Shown: positions 4,136 through 35,474, numbered from the stretch's first letter. The stretch: 36,745 nucleotides of DNA from a virus (IMGVR_UViG_3300048839_000775:1-36745); one strand, 5' to 3'. Notes: generated from the letters alone by a model not told the origin. Translations and numbers: made by a program.

Positions 4136-4432
4136 ATGCTCAGGGATGTATTTGAGGCCAGAGGCCTCACTAGACGTGAAGTTGAAGTGGCTGAGCTCGT
4201 GAGAAGCGGCCTTTCAAATCGTGAAGTTGCCAATAAGCTTTTTGTGACCGAAAAAACCGTTAAGTATCATGTGACAAACATTTACAAAAAAATAAAAGTT
4301 AAATCCCGATCACAGCTTATTGTGTGGTGTATGCCATATTTGCAAATGATCGAAGAGGAGACCCCACAACCTGAGAAAAGTGCAAGCCATGGCCCCGATT
4401 GGCTACCAGCAGGAAAGCCCGGAAGAGCCTAA
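4136..4432 (+). CDS. Stand-alone LuxR/GerE-type HTH regulator
   Basis: A 98-residue protein that is almost entirely a LuxR-type four-helix DNA-binding domain. It carries LTRREVEVAELVRSGLSNRE, then VANKLFVTEKTVKYHVTNIY and KIKVKSRSQLI, with the conserved TxxEVxV, GLSN and TVKYH elements. No receiver or ligand domain is present. A strong purine-rich ribosome-binding site (AGGGGCAGGG) abuts the ATG. It overlaps the next gene by 44 bp. It may regulate host or phage genes in the lysogen. Target unknown. Confidence 0.88.
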   Translation: MLRDVFEARGLTRREVEVAELVRSGLSNREVANKLFVTEKTVKYHVTNIYKKIKVKSRSQLIVWCMPYLQMIEEETPQPEKSASHGPDWLPAGKPGRA

Positions 4433-21580: not shown

Positions 21581-23773
21581 TTACACTCCCATGTTGTTAC
21601 TCGGTGGTAGCCCGCCGATAGGTTGTTGATCTTGAGGCATTGCAGGGGCTTGTTGCCCACCAAACGCCATATTATTTTCTAAATTTTGTTGTTCTAAAAA
21701 CTGCTCATCTTCGATGGGCTGATCCATGTCGAGATAACTCAAACGATCTTGGAGCTGCGCCATTTGCGCTTCCATTTTCTGCATCGCTTGGATTTGTCCG
21801 ACTTGCGTTTGAAGTAAAAGGGCTGAGTCTTTTTGCTCTAGCTCTGCCATCTTCTTTTGTAGATCAACCTGCATTTTTGAAAACTCGATGCGCTCTCTTG
21901 ACTCAAGCTCTCTGGTTTTTTGGTCTAGCTCATCTTGTGATTTATTTAATTGCTTAGTTAGCTGATCAAGCATCTGCTGCATTTGTTGCATCTGTGCTTG
22001 GACTTCTGGTGGTATTGGTGCTTGATCTTTATTTTCAATAACGCCCGGAGGCGCCACTTTTTTGAGTCGCTCTGCCATTTCATGAGCGCCTGGTATATCT
22101 AAGCTTTTAACCATTAAATCGCCAATGATCGGAAACAAATTAGGATATGACTTTGTAAGGTCCAGCATGGCTGCTGCAGCCTCTTGGCGTTTTGTCGCAA
22201 AGCTTGGGCCTGTCTCAACCGCAATGTCATATTTTCCAACATCCATGCGGTAAGTGACCATTTTGCCCTTGTGCTTAAACTCTTCATTCAGACGAACAAC
22301 TTCCTCTTCACCCTCTTCACCGATGATGCGCCCAACTCTAGGCCCGTCGTAATAGACTGGAATCCAAGCGTTTATAATGACGCCTGTGTGACGAATGGAT
22401 CTGGTCAAGTTATCGATTAAATGAAAGTTAGAAGTTTGTGCTTGAGCATTTCTGCGCTGAATTGCAATGCCTGATGTCTCATTTGATTTCGCGCCTAGAG
22501 CTGCATCGTAAATACCAGTTGTTGATTTTAAATCGTCACTTGCAAGCATACGAGCTTGAGTGATGGCCTGCACAGGAGGCTCATAAGCATTTCTTTGTGG
22601 AGGTGGCACAGCTTGACCATTGATGTCTTTAGCCTTGTACTCAAGGTAAGCATGGCTTTGTGTGTTTGCCGTTGCCCACTTAGACTCATGCCCTTCGAAC
22701 TGCCCCTCAACGCCTATAAATGGCGCACGAGGCGCTAAGGCAATGGTCTCAGTCTCAGAGCTTGCCCAATAGTTATACATGCGCTGTGGATCCATTGCCG
22801 GACGCACAATGCCTGACAGCACACGCTTGCCATTTACATAATACTCATCACCTAAAGTTGGTATGATCGGAATAAACTCGCCCGGAATGTCTGTCTCTTC
22901 TAAGATTTCTTCGCCATTGATTTTGTACCACTTGATTTGTGGCAAAATTGTTTTTCTAACCTGAACAATATCAATGCCAGGTGGAAGCCCGCCAAGCTCT
23001 GCAATCAACTCTTCATACTCTTCTTTTAAAAGAGTCGAGCCATCAGATAATTGATAAAGCTCTTTTTCCTTGAAAGTTTTTTCATAATATTCACAAACTC
23101 GGCACTCTTCTTTATCGACCCAGCCATCCTCATTGCCCTCATGAGCGCCCCAGATGTCATCCTTTGAAAGTTCAGCCTTTGGATATTCGGCTTTGAATTT
23201 TTCCCTCGACATTTTGTCTACAATGAAACCAAAACTTGCGTCTGAGCCATCAGACTCTTGAAAAGAAGGGTCCAGATATGCCGACATAAAATTTGGCACA
23301 CGCTTAATTAAAATCTCTTGGTCGAATGAAACTGGATCACAGTAATCAGTGATAAGACGCCAAAAGCCTATGCCGCCCGTTGCTGCTTGTTCGAAAGCTG
23401 TGTCATAAGCCGCATCTGCATTTGATCTACGCTCAATGTGACGGGCTAAGCCTTGTCTGATTTTAGCCGTTTCAATATCTGCTTGGTCATCGACTGGTGA
23501 AAACTTAAGTGAAGGCCTGTTTTGTCTTTGGTCATTTGTAACTTGCCGAACAGCAGGACCAACTTTGTTAATTGTAAGACTTGGCTTACCGTCTTGATCA
23601 CGTCTGCGCTTAATATCTTCAGGCCACTGATCGCCAGTGCGAAATTTTAAATCTTCTTCAGCAAGTTTGTAGATGTCTCGCCAATAGTTCTCGGCTAATT
23701 GAAAACGCTTTTTGGCCCTCTCAATAACATCATCACTATCAAGTTCAATTTGATCTTCTTTTTCATTGGACAC
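21581..23773 (-). CDS. P22-family portal protein
   Basis: A 730-residue protein, the usual size for P22 gp1. It has RFQLAENYWRDIYKLAEEDL, FRTGDQWPEDIKRRR, PSLTINKVGPAVRQVTNDQR and the PQRMYNYWASSETETIALAP loop, all typical. The C-terminal ~130 residues are Gln-rich coiled coil, as in P22 portals with a barrel. The start is GTG at 23773 without a clear ribosome-binding site, and no in-frame ATG lies nearby. It is first in the structural operon, divergent from the sigma factor across the phased operator array. Confidence 0.9.
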   Translation of the reverse strand: MSNEKEDQIELDSDDVIERAKKRFQLAENYWRDIYKLAEEDLKFRTGDQWPEDIKRRRDQDGKPSLTINKVGPAVRQVTNDQRQNRPSLKFSPVDDQADIETAKIRQGLARHIERRSNADAAYDTAFEQAATGGIGFWRLITDYCDPVSFDQEILIKRVPNFMSAYLDPSFQESDGSDASFGFIVDKMSREKFKAEYPKAELSKDDIWGAHEGNEDGWVDKEECRVCEYYEKTFKEKELYQLSDGSTLLKEEYEELIAELGGLPPGIDIVQVRKTILPQIKWYKINGEEILEETDIPGEFIPIIPTLGDEYYVNGKRVLSGIVRPAMDPQRMYNYWASSETETIALAPRAPFIGVEGQFEGHESKWATANTQSHAYLEYKAKDINGQAVPPPQRNAYEPPVQAITQARMLASDDLKSTTGIYDAALGAKSNETSGIAIQRRNAQAQTSNFHLIDNLTRSIRHTGVIINAWIPVYYDGPRVGRIIGEEGEEEVVRLNEEFKHKGKMVTYRMDVGKYDIAVETGPSFATKRQEAAAAMLDLTKSYPNLFPIIGDLMVKSLDIPGAHEMAERLKKVAPPGVIENKDQAPIPPEVQAQMQQMQQMLDQLTKQLNKSQDELDQKTRELESRERIEFSKMQVDLQKKMAELEQKDSALLLQTQVGQIQAMQKMEAQMAQLQDRLSYLDMDQPIEDEQFLEQQNLENNMAFGGQQAPAMPQDQQPIGGLPPSNNMGV

Positions 23774-23806
23774 ACTGACAGTTTCGACATGATATAATTC
23801 AAATAA

Positions 23807-23846
23807 AACATCTATAAATATCGATTAAAATCTATTTAAGTAGATG
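23807..23846. promoter_or_regulatory. 10-bp-phased ATC(T/G)AT array upstream of portal and sigma factor
   Basis: Half-sites occur at exact 10-bp steps: ATCTAT (23810), ATCGAT (23820), ATCTAT (23830) and an inverted GTAGAT (23840). The block AACATCTAT-N4-ATCGATT (23807-23826) is identical, including the 4-base spacer length, in the RHH/GroES intergenic region at 28594-28613. Same-face 10-bp phasing is typical of tandem RHH-protein operators. It lies midway in the divergent intergenic region and could control both directions. Confidence 0.7.
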
Positions 23847-23906
23847 TTTGCTTTTGACCTAATGGCTAGACCTTAAGCGCGTGTTTTGCTGTTATATGCT
23901 TATAAA

Positions 23907-24395
23907 ATGACAGACGAGCAGGTTCACAGACTAATTGCCGAGCATTACCAATACGTTTTTAGAGTCGTGTATAAATTCGTCAGGCGCAGAGAAGATGCAG
24001 AGGACGTAATGCAAGAGGCTGTCATCTTGGCTATGACAAAACATGACCAGCTAAAAGATGAAAGTAAATTTAGGGCATGGTTTGCCGCACTTGCCGTTAA
24101 TAAAGCCTTAAGCTACTTGTCTCGCTCTAAATGGCTAAAGCATGAAAGAATCGATGAGCTTTTAAAACCGATTTCATACGAAACCAAATTCGAAGATAAT
24201 TTCTTTTACAAAGACGCGCAGATAAAACTAGCAGCTAAAGCTTGCGACCTTCCACCAAGGCAAAGCATGGCGTATGACTTAAGAGTAAATAAGGGTTTAG
24301 ATTTTAAGGAAATAGCTGAGAAAATGGGCTGTGGTTATAACACCGCAAAAACTCATGCGAGGCTTGCGACTATGAAAATCAAAGGCACTCATTAG
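23907..24395 (+). CDS. Phage-encoded ECF-like sigma-70 family factor
   Basis: A 162-residue protein with sigma region 2 (about residues 8-75, including EDAEDVMQEAVILAM and KFRAWFAALAVNKALSYLSR) and sigma region 4 (about 112-158: LPPRQSMAYDLRVNKGLDFK, EIAEKMGCGYNTAKTHARL). This is the two-domain ECF layout. I chose ATG 23907 over a TTG at 23886. It is on the plus strand, alone, between portal and TerL, and its stop is 4 bp from the TerL stop. It probably redirects host RNA polymerase to phage promoters, with late genes the best guess. Confidence 0.87.
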   Translation: MTDEQVHRLIAEHYQYVFRVVYKFVRRREDAEDVMQEAVILAMTKHDQLKDESKFRAWFAALAVNKALSYLSRSKWLKHERIDELLKPISYETKFEDNFFYKDAQIKLAAKACDLPPRQSMAYDLRVNKGLDFKEIAEKMGCGYNTAKTHARLATMKIKGTH

Positions 24396-24399
24396 CCCA

Positions 24400-25905
24400 T
24401 CATCCCATCCAGCCTGTGCCCCCTCGATAAACAGTCGGCGGCTTTGGCTGAGCCTTAACAGCTTTTGGAAACTCAGCGCCTATTAACGGATCTAAAATGC
24501 GAGCCATGCAGTCGAGCATATCGTCATGTACACACACTGGAAATGCCAAATACTCATCGTTTACGAACGAGTGGATGTAATCAACAGACCTGCCCTCGTA
24601 GTCTACAAACATTAGTCTTTCAGGAAGCCACATTCTTTTTTGCTCAAAGATAGGCACGAGTCTTTTTATTCGGTCCTCTTTGGCTAATGCCCCACCGACA
24701 GGAGTAATATCAAAGCGGTAGTTTTTTTCTTCCATTACATACTTAATATGCTCAATGTCTGAGTCTTTGCCGTATTTCTCATAGGCGGTTTTTATGGGCT
24801 TATATTTTCTATGAAAGTAAAAAAGCTTTTCCGTTCGCTCTGTTAAATTCATTCTGTCTCTTACGCCATCAACAAAATAATAATTATTATCAGGCCCTAG
24901 TCCTATGACTTTCATCACTGTGTAATCAGACGTGGATTTCTTCTCACTCGCTGGATCAATCAGCAAATACAAATTCAAATCTTCTGATTTCAAGGCACTT
25001 TTGTAATAACATAACCACTCAGGCTTGAATCCCATTGATTTATCTGCAACGGGATCTAAGAGCATTTGTGCGCCGAATGTGTAAGGCCCTTGATCTCTTC
25101 GTTTTTCTATCAAAAGCTCATCACTCATAAACACAGGTCGGCCATCCATCTTGCCGCCCTCTCTTGCTGGCTTAATACGAGCCTTTACTGAGCCTCGATC
25201 CATCATGGTTTTATATGTATCGTTTGCGTGATAGCGCGTGCCGATGTAGCGTTTCTTCCCGCCTTGGGCACCGAGGTTAGTTGATAGCTCCCATGCCGCT
25301 GTGGTTTTTTTAATTTGCTCAGGTGTGCTTACAGACTCACGAGTCACAACGTCATCATACACCATTAAGCCAAAGTGTTTTGAGGTCGGTTGGCCATCGA
25401 CAAGCCCCCACGCTTCAATCGTTGATTCTTTTGGGTTTTGATCACGCTTAACAATGATGCCACTATCTAAAGACCACTTAGGCGCTTGAGATTTTGGCTC
25501 TGCCCAAAGCACATCGGGAAATAGATTTTTCAAAAAAGTATTCTGCTCAAGTTCTTGTTTGATTTGACTCAAGAAAGCTTTAGCTATTGGCCTTGTGTGC
25601 GAGAAAATTCCAACCGTTAAATTGGGATCGTTTAAAATGTCTTTTATTGTGAGAGCAAAAGTTATCGTTGAGCTTTTGAAATGTTCACGTGCCCATAAAT
25701 CTAAATAGCCGTCTGGCTCAGACTCGACCTCTCTACAATTGCCGTAGATCCAGTCATGGTCAGCGTCTTTTCTTTTACACCCAACAGTAAGTAAAAAAAA
25801 TAAATCTTCTTTGGCTAAACGCCTAAGAGCTTTATTGTCTTTAGACTCAAGCACTTCAAGGTAAAGGTCATTGGCTTGTTTGCGGGTTAGGCCGTGGCAG
25901 ATCAT
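24400..25905 (-). CDS. terL: Terminase large subunit
   Basis: A 501-residue packaging motor. It has a divergent Walker A-like loop WAREHFKSST (about 71-80) in place of the usual GKT form, and Walker B MVYDDVV (181-187). A C-terminal RNase H-type nuclease carries Asp317 in LLIDPAS, a DYTV segment and HDDMLD near the end. The unusual P-loop is known from several terminase clades. It follows two small genes and TerS and precedes the portal after the sigma factor. Confidence 0.9.
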   Translation of the reverse strand: MICHGLTRKQANDLYLEVLESKDNKALRRLAKEDLFFLLTVGCKRKDADHDWIYGNCREVESEPDGYLDLWAREHFKSSTITFALTIKDILNDPNLTVGIFSHTRPIAKAFLSQIKQELEQNTFLKNLFPDVLWAEPKSQAPKWSLDSGIIVKRDQNPKESTIEAWGLVDGQPTSKHFGLMVYDDVVTRESVSTPEQIKKTTAAWELSTNLGAQGGKKRYIGTRYHANDTYKTMMDRGSVKARIKPAREGGKMDGRPVFMSDELLIEKRRDQGPYTFGAQMLLDPVADKSMGFKPEWLCYYKSALKSEDLNLYLLIDPASEKKSTSDYTVMKVIGLGPDNNYYFVDGVRDRMNLTERTEKLFYFHRKYKPIKTAYEKYGKDSDIEHIKYVMEEKNYRFDITPVGGALAKEDRIKRLVPIFEQKRMWLPERLMFVDYEGRSVDYIHSFVNDEYLAFPVCVHDDMLDCMARILDPLIGAEFPKAVKAQPKPPTVYRGGTGWMG

Positions 25906-26186
25906 AATGGCGGCGTTGATTCTTTAAATTTTTTCTCAGCCAATAGCGCTTCCTGCTTTACCATCACCGCATCTCTTAACTTCTTAGTCGCTGTCACAAC
26001 CTCATGGCTTGGCATATAAGCCCTCACACCATCGTTATACTCCAAATAGCAATAAAGCATAAACTCAGACTGACAGCCTTGGCATAATGCTTTAGCGATT
26101 GAGTGCTGAAATCGTGTGGGCTTTTTAAATGCTGTTAATATTTTTCCACCACACAAACACTCGCCTGAGTATTCAATCTTGCCCAT
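25902..26186 (-). CDS. Small zinc-ribbon-like protein before TerL
   Basis: A 94-residue protein with two cysteine pairs (CLCG near residue 10 and CQGC near 35), likely one zinc site, followed by a helical tail. It overlaps TerL by ATGA and the upstream gene by 14 bp. A DNA- or terminase-associated role is suggested by context only. Confidence 0.6.
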   Translation of the reverse strand: MGKIEYSGECLCGGKILTAFKKPTRFQHSIAKALCQGCQSEFMLYCYLEYNDGVRAYMPSHEVVTATKKLRDAVMVKQEALLAEKKFKESTPPL

Positions 26187-26373
26187 TACTATCCTCGTAT
26201 CTCTTTGGCTTCATAAGTTTAATCGTCTCGCCTTTATTTTCTTTCGACTCTTCTGAAATAACTTTTTCAAATACAGACTTAAGCTTAGCGTCGGTTTTAT
26301 CTTCAGCTTCTTTATAAGCTTCAATTAACTTTGACTTAAGAAGCGAATTGAATTTACTTTTCACCAGACTCAC
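26173..26373 (-). CDS. Small charged helical protein between TerS and TerL
   Basis: A 66-residue Lys/Glu-rich protein, overlapping TerS by 20 bp and the zinc-ribbon gene by 14 bp. It is unrecognised. The coding frame is supported only by the tight gene packing. Confidence 0.5.
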   Translation of the reverse strand: MSLVKSKFNSLLKSKLIEAYKEAEDKTDAKLKSVFEKVISEESKENKGETIKLMKPKRYEDSNGQD

Positions 26374-26779
26374 CCTTTATCTGTTTAATCCTATCCTCTA
26401 AATCCACTGGCTCAATCGTCACATTTTGGTTTACATTATTTTGCACGTTTACTTGGACACCTGCGCCCTTATCACTCCACCCGTCAAAATGATTTAAGCA
26501 TTTAATTAGCATCGTTGTGTCGCCCTCTTGCGCCATCTTTATAGCCTTTTGTCTTAAGCTAAGCCTAACGCCCGCCATGTGATACTCTTTAAATTCATTG
26601 TAAGTTAGCCCTGTTGTCTCTTTTATCCTGCGCTCTATCGTGTCAACTGAACATCCCATCTGTGCCGCGGCATCTTCTCGCTTTGGATCAAGACGCATTA
26701 AACTAGCAAGCTTCTCCATGTCTATTTCAATAATTGATCCAAGAGGTCTGCCCATTTTTGGCTTGGCTTCTTCACTCAA
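26354..26779 (-). CDS. terS: Terminase small subunit-like DNA-binding protein
   Basis: A 141-residue protein. An N-terminal GRPLGS segment leads to a helix-turn-helix (EKLASLMRLDPKREDAAAQM, GCSVDTIERRIKE). The middle is a helical oligomerisation region with LRQKAIKMAQEGDTTMLIKC and NHFDGWSDK, a pattern shared with many TerS proteins (KAxxGDxxMLKxxLxxxxGW). It recognises the packaging start site in the phage genome. It overlaps the methyltransferase stop by ATGA. Confidence 0.75.
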   Translation of the reverse strand: MSEEAKPKMGRPLGSIIEIDMEKLASLMRLDPKREDAAAQMGCSVDTIERRIKETTGLTYNEFKEYHMAGVRLSLRQKAIKMAQEGDTTMLIKCLNHFDGWSDKGAGVQVNVQNNVNQNVTIEPVDLEDRIKQIKGESGEK

Positions 26780-27744
26780 AAGCCGCCCCCAACTGCAGCA
26801 GCATTTCCGTAAACTTTTTCTACAACAGCAATATTTTTGTCACCACCGCTTGAAAATGTTGATCTGTGGTTTATTTTTTTAATCAAATGAAGGCGCTGGT
26901 CTTTAATGTCATACTCAGAAATAAAAACTGGATTAGCTTGCTCATGCGCCCAATCGAAAAAGTCTTTGTGGCTAAACGTGTTGCCATAATCGGCAGTCCC
27001 TTGATATGGAATGTCGCAGTAGATTACTGAGTTTGGCTTTATTATTACCTTCCTATAATCTAAGTTTGTTAACTCCAACCGCTCCAACTGCTGCAACTGC
27101 TCCAACTGCTGCAACCGCTCCAACCGCTCCAACTGCTGCAACTGCTCCAACTGCTGCAACCGCTCCAACCGCTGCAACTGCTCCAACTGCTCCAACTGCT
27201 GCAACCGCTCCAACCGCTGCAAGTCAACTCGCTGGCCCATCTTGTGTCGCAGAATAGTTTTTAAAAACAATCTACGCGCTTTTATGCCAAGGCCCATCGG
27301 CCATTTCTTAATTCCAAACGTATCAATAAACCAAGAATCAAACTCATCAAACACAACGGCCATGTGCATGCTGCGCTTTTGTTCTTCTAAGTCTTTTCCA
27401 AATAAATAACCTTCTCCATTATTACCAAATGACCAAATGATTTTTATGTAAGCGCTTGTTTCTTTTTCTGCAAAAAAACGATCACGAGAAATCCAATCAG
27501 GTTTAAATACTTTGTAGTTATATTTGCCAGCAATAGCATCACTGATTAGCTCACACATTCCTGCTCTTATCTCATTGTAATGAAAATGCTTAAAAGATTT
27601 ACGCCTATTTACAAGCATGTAATGAGTAGCAGAAAACCCGCCGCCAAATAAATCATAAAAGTGATCAGCTCTTGGAAAGAGCTTTGCTATTTCTCCTATT
27701 ATGTTGGTCTTAGATCCCTGATAAGGTAGTCCGTACTCAGCCAC
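26776..27744 (-). CDS. D12-class N6-adenine DNA methyltransferase with an LQx repeat tract
   Basis: A 322-residue Dam-type enzyme. It has PYQGSK (7-12, the FxGxK-type SAM motif), DLFGGGFSA (31-39) and a catalytic CDIPYQGT (about 242-249) in place of the standard DPPY. The IPY form is seen in related phage enzymes. Residues ~174-225 are 17 tandem three-residue units L-[QE]-[RQ], placed between the target-recognition part and motif IV. It follows the ParB-like gene. Probably modifies phage DNA against restriction or to regulate packaging. Activity untested. Confidence 0.85.
   Translation of the reverse strand: MAEYGLPYQGSKTNIIGEIAKLFPRADHFYDLFGGGFSATHYMLVNRRKSFKHFHYNEIRAGMCELISDAIAGKYNYKVFKPDWISRDRFFAEKETSAYIKIIWSFGNNGEGYLFGKDLEEQKRSMHMAVVFDEFDSWFIDTFGIKKWPMGLGIKARRLFLKTILRHKMGQRVDLQRLERLQQLEQLEQLQRLERLQQLEQLQQLERLERLQQLEQLQQLERLELTNLDYRKVIIKPNSVIYCDIPYQGTADYGNTFSHKDFFDWAHEQANPVFISEYDIKDQRLHLIKKINHRSTFSSGGDKNIAVVEKVYGNAAAVGGGF
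27072..27224 (-). repeat. 9-bp tandem repeat inside the methyltransferase
   Basis: About 17 copies of a 9-bp unit (plus strand CAACYGCTS-like, for example CAACTGCTG and CAACCGCTC) encode L-[QE]-[RQ]. Units vary at fixed third positions and form longer super-repeats. Whole-unit gain or loss would keep the frame. It resembles length-variable tracts in phage methyltransferases. Confidence 0.92.
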
Positions 27745-27747
27745 TTA

Positions 27748-28278
27748 TTACCCCACGATTTTAGCTTGAGACTTTTCAAATGTTTCAGCGCAGTGAGGAC
27801 ATTCGAGAATAACTATTTGCGTCTTATCAAGGCCTTCATGCTCTATTGGATCAACTAGGTCACTTACATCAGTTGAAAGGTTTAGGTCAGTGTCCAATCC
27901 CATTAGCTCAAAATCAAAATCATCACTTAGGTTTAAGTCTAAGACGCCTAGCTTCATAAGTTCATCGTCGTGTTCTGCAAGCTCTGCTATTTTATTGTCA
28001 GCGTATAAAAAAGCCGTTTCTTGAACCTTATCTTCAAAGTCCTGCACGTCTACAGGAGCCTCAGTCCAGCCGTTTAGCTTTGCAGCGGCTAGACGACCAT
28101 GGCCCGCGACAATAAAGCCTGACAGCTTAGACACGACAATAGGATGTCGCCAGCCTTGGTATTTCATTACTTTGGCCAGCATTTCTATCTGGCGCTTAGG
28201 ATGGCTATTAGCGTTGGCCGGATGTGGTGTGAGCTGATCCAGCGGCAGCAGCTTTTGATGTGCACAGTTGATTTCCAT
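27748..28278 (-). CDS. ParB-like N-terminal domain protein paired with methyltransferase
   Basis: A 176-residue protein. The N-terminal ParB/Srx domain has LLPLDQLTPHPANANSHPKR, then IVVSKLSGFIVAGHGRLAAA and DNKIAELAEHDDE. The C-terminus carries a zinc-knuckle-like ECPHCAETF. In many phages this domain is fused to a DNA methylase. Here the methyltransferase is the next gene, 3 bp downstream. It may guide or regulate methylation, or act as a nuclease. Confidence 0.82.
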   Translation of the reverse strand: MEINCAHQKLLPLDQLTPHPANANSHPKRQIEMLAKVMKYQGWRHPIVVSKLSGFIVAGHGRLAAAKLNGWTEAPVDVQDFEDKVQETAFLYADNKIAELAEHDDELMKLGVLDLNLSDDFDFELMGLDTDLNLSTDVSDLVDPIEHEGLDKTQIVILECPHCAETFEKSQAKIVG

Positions 28279-28364
28279 TATTTACCCCATATTTCAAACA
28301 TAAAGGCCCATGAGCGCTGCGTAACAAAGCTATGCAGCTCAATGCTCACTCTAAGACTTTAAAC

Positions 28365-28559
28365 TCAGCCAAGCCTCTTCAGCTCATCCGTATTGTTGGC
28401 CAAAAAGCCGTTTACAATCTCTCTGACCAAATCAGACAGTGTGCGACCTTTTACCTCGGCTATTAAATCAAGTGAGCGCTTGGTCTCGCTTGATACAATG
28501 GCTGTGATCTTGGCGTTTAGCTCTTCTTTAGGCACTGATTGAATTTCTGATATTTTCAT
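28365..28559 (-). CDS. Ribbon-helix-helix (CopG/Arc-like) regulator
   Basis: A 64-residue protein from ATG 28559 (MKISEIQSVPKEEL). The beta strand AKITAIVSSE is followed by helix A (KRSLDLIAEVKGRT) and helix B (LSDLVREIVNGFL), the standard RHH spacing and comparable with P22 Arc. A longer start at 28598 would overlap the operator array. It is divergent from GroES, with the phased ATC(T/G)AT array between. Autoregulation plus control of GroES, the sigma factor and portal is the natural hypothesis. Confidence 0.82.
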   Translation of the reverse strand: MKISEIQSVPKEELNAKITAIVSSETKRSLDLIAEVKGRTLSDLVREIVNGFLANNTDELKRLG

Positions 28560-28593
28560 ATTTAAAAAGCCTATAAACTCTTTTAGGCATTGC

Positions 28594-28648
28594 AACATCT
28601 ATCTAGATCGATTTGCATCGATGTAGACTTTTATCTTTTAAAATCTAT
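28594..28648. promoter_or_regulatory. 10-bp-phased ATC(T/G)AT array upstream of RHH and GroES genes
   Basis: Half-sites lie at 28597 (ATCTAT), 28607 (ATCGAT) and 28617 (ATCGAT), exactly 10 bp apart. A further ATCTAT is at 28643. AACATCTAT-N4-ATCGATT at 28594-28613 repeats the portal/sigma array exactly in its fixed bases. It is placed between divergent starts at 28559 and 28659, so an RHH repressor bound here could block both promoters. Confidence 0.7.
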
Positions 28649-28658
28649 AAAAGTAAAT

Positions 28659-28961
28659 ATGGAAACAAAAATCAGACCAATTTTAGATCGCATTTTAGTT
28701 GAGCCCATCGAAGAGCCTGATGTCACCAAAGGCGGCATCATCATGGTAAAGCATGAAAAAGAAAAGCCAAACGAAGGCTTAGTGCTTGCTGTTGGTGAAG
28801 GTCGCTACGACGTACAAGTCCAGCGCATCATCCCGCTTGTAATTAAGCCAGGCGACAGAGTCCTGTATGATGGCAAATACAAGGGTACTCCGATTGAGTG
28901 GGAAGGTAAAACTCTGCTTGTAATGAAACAAGAGGATCTGTTGGGCGTAAGAGAGCCGTGA
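28659..28961 (+). CDS. groES: Phage-encoded GroES-like co-chaperonin
   Basis: A 100-residue protein matching GroES along its whole length: KIRPILDRILVEP, mobile loop EPDVTKGGIIMVKHEKEK (19-36; KGGIIM in place of the usual AGGIVL-type core), then GLVLAVGEGR, PLVIKPGDRVLY and a C-terminal EDLLGV strand. It would cap host GroEL. Cell copies normally sit next to groEL, but none is here. It is a single rightward gene divergent from the RHH regulator. It probably helps fold the P22-type coat protein late in infection. No strong ribosome-binding site precedes ATG 28659. Confidence 0.9.
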   Translation: METKIRPILDRILVEPIEEPDVTKGGIIMVKHEKEKPNEGLVLAVGEGRYDVQVQRIIPLVIKPGDRVLYDGKYKGTPIEWEGKTLLVMKQEDLLGVREP

Positions 28962-32863: not shown

Positions 32864-33294
32864 ATTCTCATCTCCTTTTCTTTCATAAATTGAGCCCATG
32901 GGTAATCATCATCAACGCCAGCGGCTCGCCTTGCCTTCAAACGGATTTTTTCAACTTCAAGCGCTTCGAGTAAATTGTTACAGCCGGGGTAATCAGAGGC
33001 CAAAAATTTAGCCAAGCCATCGTTTTTGTAATCAGGGGAAAAAATTGGAGAGCCAGCTTGCACTGCCTTGGCTCTGGCTTCAGCCCTTGCCGCGTCCCTA
33101 AAGTCTTGAGGCAGTGGTGCCACACGAGATGAATCCAGAAAGTGATTTACAATCTTTTGAAACGCATACGAGTCTACTGCATTGACGTGTTCATAAATTC
33201 TAAGCATCACAGGATTTGGAAACGACTGCTTCCATCTGGCTACTATCGGAATCATGATGTTATGGAAAACCTCACTGCTCATTTTGGGCATCAT
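32860..33294 (-). CDS. Helicase-loader-like replication protein
   Basis: A 144-residue protein. Its N-terminal part (IARWKQSFPNPVMLRIYEH-like, then VDSYAFQKIVNHFLDSSRVA, PLPQDFRDAA) follows the pattern of small phage replication proteins such as gp39P/lambda P-type helicase loaders. It is encoded directly after the O-like initiator, the usual order. It likely recruits the host DnaB helicase. The family match is by pattern, without a diagnostic active site. Confidence 0.6.
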   Translation of the reverse strand: MMPKMSSEVFHNIMIPIVARWKQSFPNPVMLRIYEHVNAVDSYAFQKIVNHFLDSSRVAPLPQDFRDAARAEARAKAVQAGSPIFSPDYKNDGLAKFLASDYPGCNNLLEALEVEKIRLKARRAAGVDDDYPWAQFMKEKEMRI

Positions 33295-34040
33295 GCATTA
33301 CCCCTTTGCTCTTGGTGTTTTTTGGCATACTCAATAAAAGGGATTTCTTCGTTACTAAAGCTCTCGACAGCACCATAGTCGGGCTCTAAACAGTCCATCC
33401 ATGTGGATGCCCATGTTGAAAAAAGTTTTATATATTTCGGCTCTGTTTTATTAGCCACGCATTGCGCCCGATATCTTTGAGCAGCCGTTTTGATATCTTC
33501 AATGCTGGCCCCAGCCTCAACATCAGCCATGAGGCGCTTAAGACCAAGGGCCTTGCCTTCTTTTCTGGGATAGAGTTTATAAATTTGCTCAAGTTCCGCT
33601 AAAATCGAACTTTTTTTAGCCTCTTGTTCTTTTTCTTTATCTTGATATTGATCTTTATCTTTATCTTGTTCTTTATCCTCAAGGGTTTTGAAACCCTTTC
33701 GATACCCTTTCAATAGGTTTAGCTTTTCAAGCCTCTTTAGGACAGGTCGGTGGGGTTTACAATCTTCAGACAGGGTCCCGTATTGAAAATCGATGAATCC
33801 TACAATCATCAACTTTTCGTTTTTGTCGATGAGAGTGATCCGGTCACCAAAACAAGACCTGATCTCATTAAGCGACACCGGCTCGCCAACGTGAAACCCG
33901 ATAGATTCTAGGTCAATATCCCAAATCCCTGCCATGTCGCAGTTGTCGCGCAAGAACTCCCATGTGCACTTCATCTTTGGCGTGAGCTTCCTAAACCAAG
34001 ACTTTCCCCATTTATCCGTATCAGTGAAACGCTTCGCCAT
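33291..34040 (-). CDS. O-like replication initiator
   Basis: A 249-residue protein. The N-terminal winged-helix-like domain (DKWGKSWFRKLTPKMKCTWE to about residue 100) is followed by a Lys/Asp/Glu/Gln-rich linker with DKDKDQYQDKEKEQE (about 125-140). The C-terminal helical domain has LYPRKEGKALGLKRL, IKTAAQRYRAQC and EPKYIKLFSTWASTWMD, found in phage replication proteins. The linker region contains repeats at DNA level that could be the origin, as in lambda O. Confidence 0.72.
   Translation of the reverse strand: MAKRFTDTDKWGKSWFRKLTPKMKCTWEFLRDNCDMAGIWDIDLESIGFHVGEPVSLNEIRSCFGDRITLIDKNEKLMIVGFIDFQYGTLSEDCKPHRPVLKRLEKLNLLKGYRKGFKTLEDKEQDKDKDQYQDKEKEQEAKKSSILAELEQIYKLYPRKEGKALGLKRLMADVEAGASIEDIKTAAQRYRAQCVANKTEPKYIKLFSTWASTWMDCLEPDYGAVESFSNEEIPFIEYAKKHQEQRGNA
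33633..33700. other. Possible origin region inside the initiator gene
   Basis: Four CTTTATC direct repeats (33635, 33653, 33659, 33671) in an AT-rich low-complexity tract are followed by a perfect 8-bp-arm inverted repeat AAGGGTTTTGAAACCCTT (33681-33698). Origins embedded in the linker region of the initiator gene are known in lambdoid phages. The repeats could also just reflect the Asp-Lys repeats they encode. Confidence 0.35.
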
Positions 34041-34358
34041 TTGCCCCCCCGGCTGCGACTGTTGTTGTTTGTTAAAAATGAAAATTTTGATGTATTTTTT
34101 GGTGTCATAGTGGCGTCACTATGTGCATCAGACGACTGCAAATGACTCATTTTGAGGCAAATGCGAATTATAGAAACTTGTTTTATTTCCTGTGCGAAAG
34201 CACTGAATTTACTAGTGAAGTGGTGCCCCGGGCCGGACTTGAACCGGCACGACAGTGTAACCCGTCTCAGGATTTTAAGTCCTGTTGAGCTTTCTCTTAT
34301 GTATTTAATACTACTAGGCATTGTCAAATGAAGAGAGGTCGATGGCGTCATGGTGGCG
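34041..34358. other. Non-coding attachment-site region (318 bp)
   Basis: There is no convincing gene between the initiator and integrase. The interval holds the tRNA-Leu-like core (34221-34284) and integrase arm-type candidate sites with core TGGCGTCA at 34111, 34343 and 34354. The leftmost is inside a perfect inverted repeat, CATAGTGGCGTCACTATG (34106-34123), and reads GTCACTAT like the known lambda arm-site consensus. The rightmost overlaps the integrase stop codon. Confidence 0.7.
34221..34284 (-). other. attP core: 3' half of a tRNA-Leu(UAA) gene
   Basis: On the minus strand the sequence reads anticodon stem-loop (CAGGA-CTTAAAA-TCCTG, anticodon TAA), a variable arm (GAC...GTC), T-arm (GCCGG TTCAAGT CCGGC), acceptor 3' strand CCGGGGC, discriminator A and CCA. 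The 5' half of a tRNA is missing, so this is not a functional tRNA. Tyrosine integrases commonly use such 3' ends so the host tRNA is rebuilt on integration. The expected host target is a tRNA-Leu(UAA) gene with GCCCCGG as 5' acceptor strand. Confidence 0.88.
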
Positions 34359-35474
34359 TCACTCTCTACTTCTTTTTACATCAACGTCGAAGCTCACTGA
34401 CTCACCGAAACCTTTTAGCCTGTTGCCTGAAAGCTCCGAATAAATGTCTGTAGTCGTGCTTGATGCGTGACCAAGTATAGCCTGAAGCGCTTTAATATTG
34501 CCCGTATTAAGCGCAAACTCTCGACCATAGGTGTGACGTAGGGCATGAGGATGTGTGTCGATTTTAGACGCCTTGGCGATGTTATTAACGACCTCCCAAA
34601 TCTCACGCGGTCCATAGAATTTACCCGAAGGCTTTGTAAACACAAAATCACTCGGCGCGTTAAACTTAGTGGCCTTTTTATGTGCCGCCAATATCGAAAT
34701 TAAATTTTCTGGAACAGGAACATCTCTTGTCGCATAAACTCCACGCTTGGTGCCACCCTCAACGCTGTTTGATGCCTGAACATATCTTTGTGATATATGA
34801 AACTGTCTGGTCTTAAAATTAACAGACGACCACTTTAGCGCGATAAGCTCCTGTTTTCTGAGCCCCGACATTAAAAACACACAGGCCACAGTAAAATGAA
34901 AACTATCAATTTTTTTTGCCGTTTCAATAAATCGTAGGCATTCATCAGAATCAGCCAAAACCTTTGGCCTTTTTGTGCCCATGCGCTGCTCTTTTATTTT
35001 AAGCCCAAGGACAGGATTAAATTTTACCAGTGGCGGCTGTTCGTTTAATGCATCGCTGAAAATTACCGAAAGCAATGCTTTAACTCTTGTTCTGGTTGAG
35101 TTGGATATTCTAAAGTTTGGTTTTAAAAAACCATCCTCTGATATTTTTAATAGAAAATATCTAATCTGTGCACCAGTAATTTCTGACAATGGCAACTCTG
35201 ACATTATTGGCAATATGTAGTCCCTTAACCGCTGCTCATCAGAATTCCAAGTTGCTGGGCCGTAATCTTTCATTCTCTTTTTGATCCAGACGCTGGCCCA
35301 TTCTATGAACTTAATCCCATCGCCATCATCATGCATAATAGTGCCGTCACGAAGAAATTGTTTTTTTCTTCGCATCTGATGGTACCACTCTTCTGCATCT
35401 GATCTTTTTGTAAATCTAGGCGATGAATATAACTCACCGCCGACTCGTATGAATCGACGATAAATCTTGCTCAT
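34359..35474 (-). CDS. int: Tyrosine-family phage integrase
   Basis: A 371-residue integrase with all catalytic elements visible: Arg206 in SGLRKQELIALKW, HALRH (His310, Arg313, His314), GHASSTTT (His336) and the nucleophile Tyr345 in TDIYS. The N-terminal arm-binding and SAM-like core domain cover residues 1-165. It starts at ATG 35474, overlapping the HTH gene stop (ATGA). It lies next to the attP core, whose crossover would fall in the anticodon stem-loop. Confidence 0.95.
   Translation of the reverse strand: MSKIYRRFIRVGGELYSSPRFTKRSDAEEWYHQMRRKKQFLRDGTIMHDDGDGIKFIEWASVWIKKRMKDYGPATWNSDEQRLRDYILPIMSELPLSEITGAQIRYFLLKISEDGFLKPNFRISNSTRTRVKALLSVIFSDALNEQPPLVKFNPVLGLKIKEQRMGTKRPKVLADSDECLRFIETAKKIDSFHFTVACVFLMSGLRKQELIALKWSSVNFKTRQFHISQRYVQASNSVEGGTKRGVYATRDVPVPENLISILAAHKKATKFNAPSDFVFTKPSGKFYGPREIWEVVNNIAKASKIDTHPHALRHTYGREFALNTGNIKALQAILGHASSTTTDIYSELSGNRLKGFGESVSFDVDVKRSRE

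Follow-up and report, generated by a model that had tools for sequence, protein, structure and literature searches.

Two intergenic regions of a 36,745-nt viral DNA stretch (the window, analysed over its whole length) carry the same phased DNA word, which raises the question of which protein reads it and which genes that protein would control. A sequence-only reading had proposed that a 64-residue RHH protein governs its own gene, GroES, a sigma factor and the portal operon through these sites.

The two arrays and the genes around them

The motif AACATCTAT-N4-ATCGATT is present at 23807–23826 and 28594–28613, exactly as that reading stated. Array A (28594–28622, no strand assigned), between the RHH and GroES genes, has three ATCKAT half-sites in 10-bp steps at 28597, 28607 and 28617. 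Array B (23806–23850, likewise unstranded), between the portal and sigma genes, has ATCKAT at 23810, 23820 and 23830; the fourth half-site that had been counted at 23840 is GTAGAT, inverted and imperfect. Overall, 23806–23850 is a broken palindrome with outer ends AACATCTA...TAGATGTT. The distance from array to flanking start codons is 33–57 bp on the portal/sigma side and 35–37 bp on the RHH/GroES side. When all 36,745 bases were scanned, half-sites at exact 10-bp steps were found only at these six ATCKAT positions; exact phased pairs begin at 23810, 23820, 28597 and 28607 and nowhere else. With two mismatches allowed, phased matches numbered 24 against 8.4 expected (sd 3.5), a count reached in 0 of 100 shuffles, and a period-10 self-similarity scan without a preset motif ranked the two arrays first and second among three-unit regions. 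On the scale of the whole viral collection, where at least 80 stretches hold three ATCKAT spaced by 10 bp, such a pattern is not rare by itself, and the word alone is not diagnostic. Because the word is common there, significance must come from position and comparison.

Most genes of the window lie on the minus strand, with GroES and sigma divergent from the RHH-headed and portal-headed groups. Behind the RHH gene (28365–28559, minus strand) lies late operon 1 (24400–28278, minus strand), which contains a ParB-like gene (27748–28278), an adenine methylase-like gene (26776–27744), a TerS-like gene (26354–26779), two small genes and TerL (24400–25905). Late operon 2 begins with a P22-like portal gene (21581–23773, minus strand; PF16510, E 2e-183), followed by scaffold, coat and tail genes; the P22 coat family was also matched (PF11651, E 8e-50). 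On the plus strand, the GroES co-chaperonin gene (28659–28961; PF00166, E 1e-24) is divergent from RHH across array A, and a gene for an ECF-like sigma factor with regions 2 and 4 (23907–24395; PF04542, E 4e-13; PF08281, E 9e-9) is divergent from the portal gene across array B. An integrase-like gene (34359–35474) adjoins a segment (34220–34286) whose reverse complement, read by eye, looks like a tRNA-Leu reduced to its 3′ two thirds (T arm TTCAAGTCC, end ...GGGGCACCA, anticodon probably TAA). Neither ARAGORN nor Rfam gave a match there, presumably because the tRNA is partial. The segment is likely the attP core, and with the integrase-like gene beside this attachment-like site the phage is therefore probably temperate. 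A 12-bp period repeat was also seen at 33621–33690, within an ORF at 33291–34040.

The superfamily to which the 64-residue protein was assigned has a beta-alpha-alpha fold, two copies of which pair their strands antiparallel and read the major groove. Against Pfam RHH_1 the protein scored 16.5 bits, below the curated threshold of 20.5 (E 0.008), and 4 of 16 family members matched at E ≤ 0.1 (best 0.0006). Its AlphaFold model has helices at 24–37 and 41–55 (mean pLDDT about 93–97), with the strand unformed in the monomer model. The fold matches in the PDB were overwhelmingly RHH proteins (ORF56, ParG, CopG, Arc, AmrZ; probability up to 0.99), although at this small size no Foldseek E value was better than 0.27. 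We file it as a predicted RHH protein on the strength of fold and family pattern, not of the Pfam cut-off; in the family alignment the candidate DNA-facing strand residues are K17, T19 and I21. Direct protein searches of viral contigs and known phages found no homologues, and relatives were instead found via TerL and portal.

Arrays and probable regulator in related phages

Viral contigs and genomes were scanned with TerL for phages having a TerL at least 62% identical and a P22-like portal. Most of these relatives have an RHH gene some 1 kb upstream of TerL, in the majority of cases oriented away from the terminase operon. Two were found in Bdellovibrionota assemblies (L200, Bdellovibrionaceae UBA6502; L320, a genome of the same phylum). 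L006, with a portal 82% and GroES 88% identical to those of the window, keeps the gene order GroES, RHH (64% identical), ParB, methylase, TerS, TerL, portal. It has no sigma gene and no phased ATCKAT; both regions instead carry a TATA-cored array with 10-bp steps, and two of the three DNA-facing strand residues of its RHH protein are changed (K17S and T19A). Within the methylase-like gene of both phages a 9-bp tandem repeat tract (LQQLEQLERLQ...) was seen, differing in length (window 27075–27225; L006 about 2711–2860).

ATCKAT was kept by no relative. The sequence-only reading had held that loss of the array in close relatives retaining the RHH gene would tell against it; the letters are indeed lost, but the array itself is kept, in a new word. 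In each of the 13 genomes whose sequence could be used for both regions, similarly phased arrays of the phage's own lie upstream of RHH and of portal, and in most of them the same phage-specific word (for example TATA, GTAAAC, CTATAG, TTAAAG, GTAATA or TGTTAA) is clearly present at both places. Half-site spacings in the clade are mostly 11, then 10 and 12, and in the window and L006 the arrays stop short of the start codon by one helical turn more than in the other genomes. In the 16 contigs checked, phased pairs of each phage's word never fell outside regions A and B; with exact words, several of these contigs have a pair in one region only and two have none. In L252 no RHH gene was found and no array lies upstream of portal; a TTGACA at that place was dropped as evidence, its spacing to a -10 being unconvincing. 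The operator word was also rejected as a finder of the system, since three CTATAG at 11-bp steps returned 68 stretches, of which only the already-known L260 belongs to the clade. The contigs outside the clade, sixty-odd in number (L321–L388), carry their three or more CTATAG apparently often in intergenic DNA.

Did the two arrays of a phage change together? Over the 13 phages, the A and B regions of the same phage had 145 7-mers in common; permuting the pairs 100,000 times gave 50 on average and never more than 123 (p < 1e-5). Dinucleotide shuffling of each genome gave p ≤ 0.006 in 8 of 13, the remaining five failing alone. The half-site classes were initially recognised by eye; hexamers chosen by position alone matched at 5.2 of 6 positions within a phage versus 4.0 across phages (p 1e-4). 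It is very improbable that the arrays arose by chance, are simply AT-rich promoter DNA of low complexity, or stem from one region having recently been duplicated. The arrays are AT-rich, some genomes fail the shuffle control by themselves and such patterns occur elsewhere in viral contigs, but the permutation and shuffle tests, the lack of phased pairs elsewhere in the same contigs and the flanks of A and B, unlike each other apart from the half-sites, speak against these readings.

The word also followed the RHH strand. Position-defined half-site similarity correlated with similarity at RHH residues 17/19/21 (r 0.33, p 0.013; p 0.009 controlling for TerL) and showed no correlation with the RHH helices or TerL. 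A cruder first Mantel test, in which the 6-mers that phages share were compared with the identity of their RHH strands, gave no correlation. By strand residues 17–21, T-x-T-x-W is found with CTATAG (L254, L259, L260), P-I/V-T-x-W with TTAAAG or CTAAAG (L249, L250, L255, L258), P-L-T-x-W with GTAAAC (L242, L246), G-x-T-F-x with GTAAAC/GTAAAA (L103, L244), R-I-T-L-A with GTAATA (L200), G-V-Q-L-W with TGTTAA (L320), K-I-T-A-I with ATCKAT (window) and S-V-A-V-I with TATA (L006). Region B of L105 and L106 also has CTATAG, and for their RHH proteins the strand T-x-T-x-W is predicted. Between L249 and L254, identity is 75% to either side of the portal-upstream region and the flanks are almost the same; the array nevertheless differs, in line with a difference in the RHH strand. 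In this pair the RHH gene and the arrays differ amid neighbouring DNA of 75–85% identity, as if exchanged or evolving as a module.

Because the two sites changed in concert, the best fit is a single regulator, the RHH protein, and from these comparisons it is very probably the common regulator of both arrays. An alternative is that another protein (the phage sigma, a GerE/LuxR-type protein encoded at 4136–4432 or a host regulator) binds the arrays and the RHH gene is merely adjacent. The window does encode such DNA-binding proteins, and its sigma gene adjoins array B. We regard this as improbable: the half-sites track the RHH strand residues, and they vary from phage to phage within a single clade, a change with which a protein of the host would have difficulty keeping pace. 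Recognition of the arrays by sigma was rejected, as the sigma gene is in the window only and in none of the relatives, which keep their arrays.

Geometry of the late promoters

The gap from the last half-site to the -10 was 12–13 bp in 25 of 31 late promoters and in none of the 14 promoters on the RHH side (Fisher p 2e-7). In 20 of 21 genomes (9.4 expected), a -10-like hexamer, with A in second and T in sixth place, starts 11–15 bp before the portal start codon. The -35 match at late promoters was near chance (2.8/6 versus 2.5 in shuffles), and the late -10s were poor by sigma70 standards, with a mean match of 3.1/6 at portal and 3.7 at the terminase operon. RHH promoters exceeded portal promoters in both elements (-10, p 5e-5; -35, p 0.006). 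L006 has a -10 candidate, TACTAT, at a gap of 12–13; the window candidate for the portal promoter, TATCAT (23789–23794, minus strand, a consensus match only), is 15 bp from the last half-site and, with a gap of 15–16 bp, falls outside the pattern. These likely -10s leave leaders of about 15 bases in both phages. In T4, the MotA box takes the place of the -35, at a distance of 12 ± 1 bp from the -10 (PMC2988021). Since the late-promoter geometry matches the MotA spacing, activation is inferred, and we lean towards the RHH protein activating the late promoters.

A dedicated regulon of the RHH protein, made up of its own gene, the ParB/methylase/terminase operon and the portal operon, agrees with arrays that covary and half-sites that follow its strand; sigma and GroES, which had been counted in, are not supported as members. 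Outside the window the TerL–portal gap is filled by two tRNAs, by a minus-strand gene unrelated to sigma or by further small genes: tRNA-His and tRNA-Gln in L254 (11503–12522), and a similar-looking minus-strand gene in L255 (9333–9698), L259 (11520–11951) and L246 (3499–3978). With such varied content in other phages, the sigma gene, absent from them, appears to be cargo in a variable slot. Apart from the window, GroES was found in L006 and L276 alone; in L276 it directly follows RHH in the same direction. Reading the sequence by eye, we saw no -10 at the conserved 12–13 bp distance for the sigma or GroES promoters. RHH control of both genes is possible.

In the mechanism that we propose, the small phage RHH protein would be a dedicated regulator of the late region. 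Its dimers would bind half-sites phased at 10–11 bp, so that each turn of the helix offers one. Of the two arrays, the first precedes the RHH gene and the ParB/methylase/terminase operon, and the second precedes the portal/structural operon. The last half-site (about -30 to -25) would stand in for the -35 element, so that host RNA polymerase would be engaged via a poor -10, and late mRNAs of the relatives would begin at or near the start codon. The RHH protein would set its own level at its better, sigma70-like promoter, and protein and operators would diverge together, preventing cross-talk among related prophages in one cell.

Activation is less sure than the pairing of protein and arrays, since a gene that often runs against the early genes and has a good promoter is what one would expect for a lysogen repressor; in most relatives RHH is convergent with the early genes and has a decent sigma70-like promoter. 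It also counts against activation that lysogens producing an activator would suffer if it were not kept in check. The protein could instead be an immunity-like repressor of the late region that occupies the arrays in lysogens or at an early stage of infection, blocking the portal, terminase and its own promoters, with late genes coming on once replicating DNA titrates it away or convergent early transcription silences it. We consider this, the main rival, less likely than activation. It accords with an RHH gene usually transcribed against both the early and the late direction from the better promoter, with the fast divergence of regulator and operator that is classical for immunity repressors such as those of Cluster A mycobacteriophages (PMC6550527), and with repression by SSV1 F55, Arc and CopG, F55 binding tandem repeats and its own promoter. 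However, late promoters with chance-level -35s and poor -10s should be weak once derepressed, and a repressor does not need a strict 12–13 bp to the -10 at both unrelated late promoters. Activation, the reading to which we incline, may be combined with repression in a clade-wide late switch, which we put forward tentatively: the RHH array would replace the -35 at near-leaderless promoters, partial occupancy at high DNA copy number would activate, full coating in the lysogen would repress, as with AvtR, and regulator and operators would diversify into mutually blind pairs.

Known RHH systems and phage switches

The fold matches include P22 Arc, CopG and ParG. P22 Arc and Mnt, CopG, ParG and omega bind tandem or paired half-sites and are known repressors or partition proteins; we know of none that controls portal and terminase operons. 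In the archaeal virus SSV1 the RHH lysogeny regulator F55 binds tandem repeats, both at the promoter of its own gene and at further promoters of the virus (PMC5569661), as the small viral RHH protein, a predicted dimer, appears to do here. Unlike F55, which represses early genes in an archaeal system, the present arrays are at terminase and portal promoters and are best read as activating. AvtR of AFV6, also a viral RHH regulator, autorepresses, is thought to polymerise along DNA, and activates or represses according to concentration, but it has two RHH motifs per chain and acts on inverted repeats at archaeal promoters.

The late promoters resemble the T4 middle promoters in lacking a -35 and in having a candidate activator site at about the MotA distance (12 ± 1 bp) from the -10, the window itself having 15–16 bp. 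MotA, in contrast, is not an RHH protein, uses a single box, needs AsiA and requires an excellent -10, whereas here poor -10s are joined to arrays. We therefore describe the late promoters as working like MotA-type sigma appropriation and not as members of that class. The TF-smORF modules of Vibrio phages (Silpe et al., 2023; PMC10432266) are a further parallel, being temperate-phage activators in which a few residues set promoter specificity and prevent cross-activation between prophages; unlike the present proteins they are not described as RHH, and they drive induction via an antirepressor, not late promoters. A phage late circuit of this kind was not found in the literature searched, which excluded most subscription papers, and within that literature a late-gene switch of this type is so far undescribed; F55, AvtR, MotA and, as regards diverging activator specificity among prophages, the TF-smORF modules come nearest.

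The P22-portal phage PBR31 is annotated with a Q-type antiterminator, whereas none was noticed here; how late genes are switched on in temperate podoviruses without an evident one is poorly known. Across this clade, with members in Bdellovibrionota assemblies, a protein of 60–80 residues and two short arrays appear to do the late switching. The clade also offers about eight naturally matched pairs of RHH strand and operator, a set from which the recognition code of RHH proteins, and the reasons why phage regulators and their operators diversify, may be approached.
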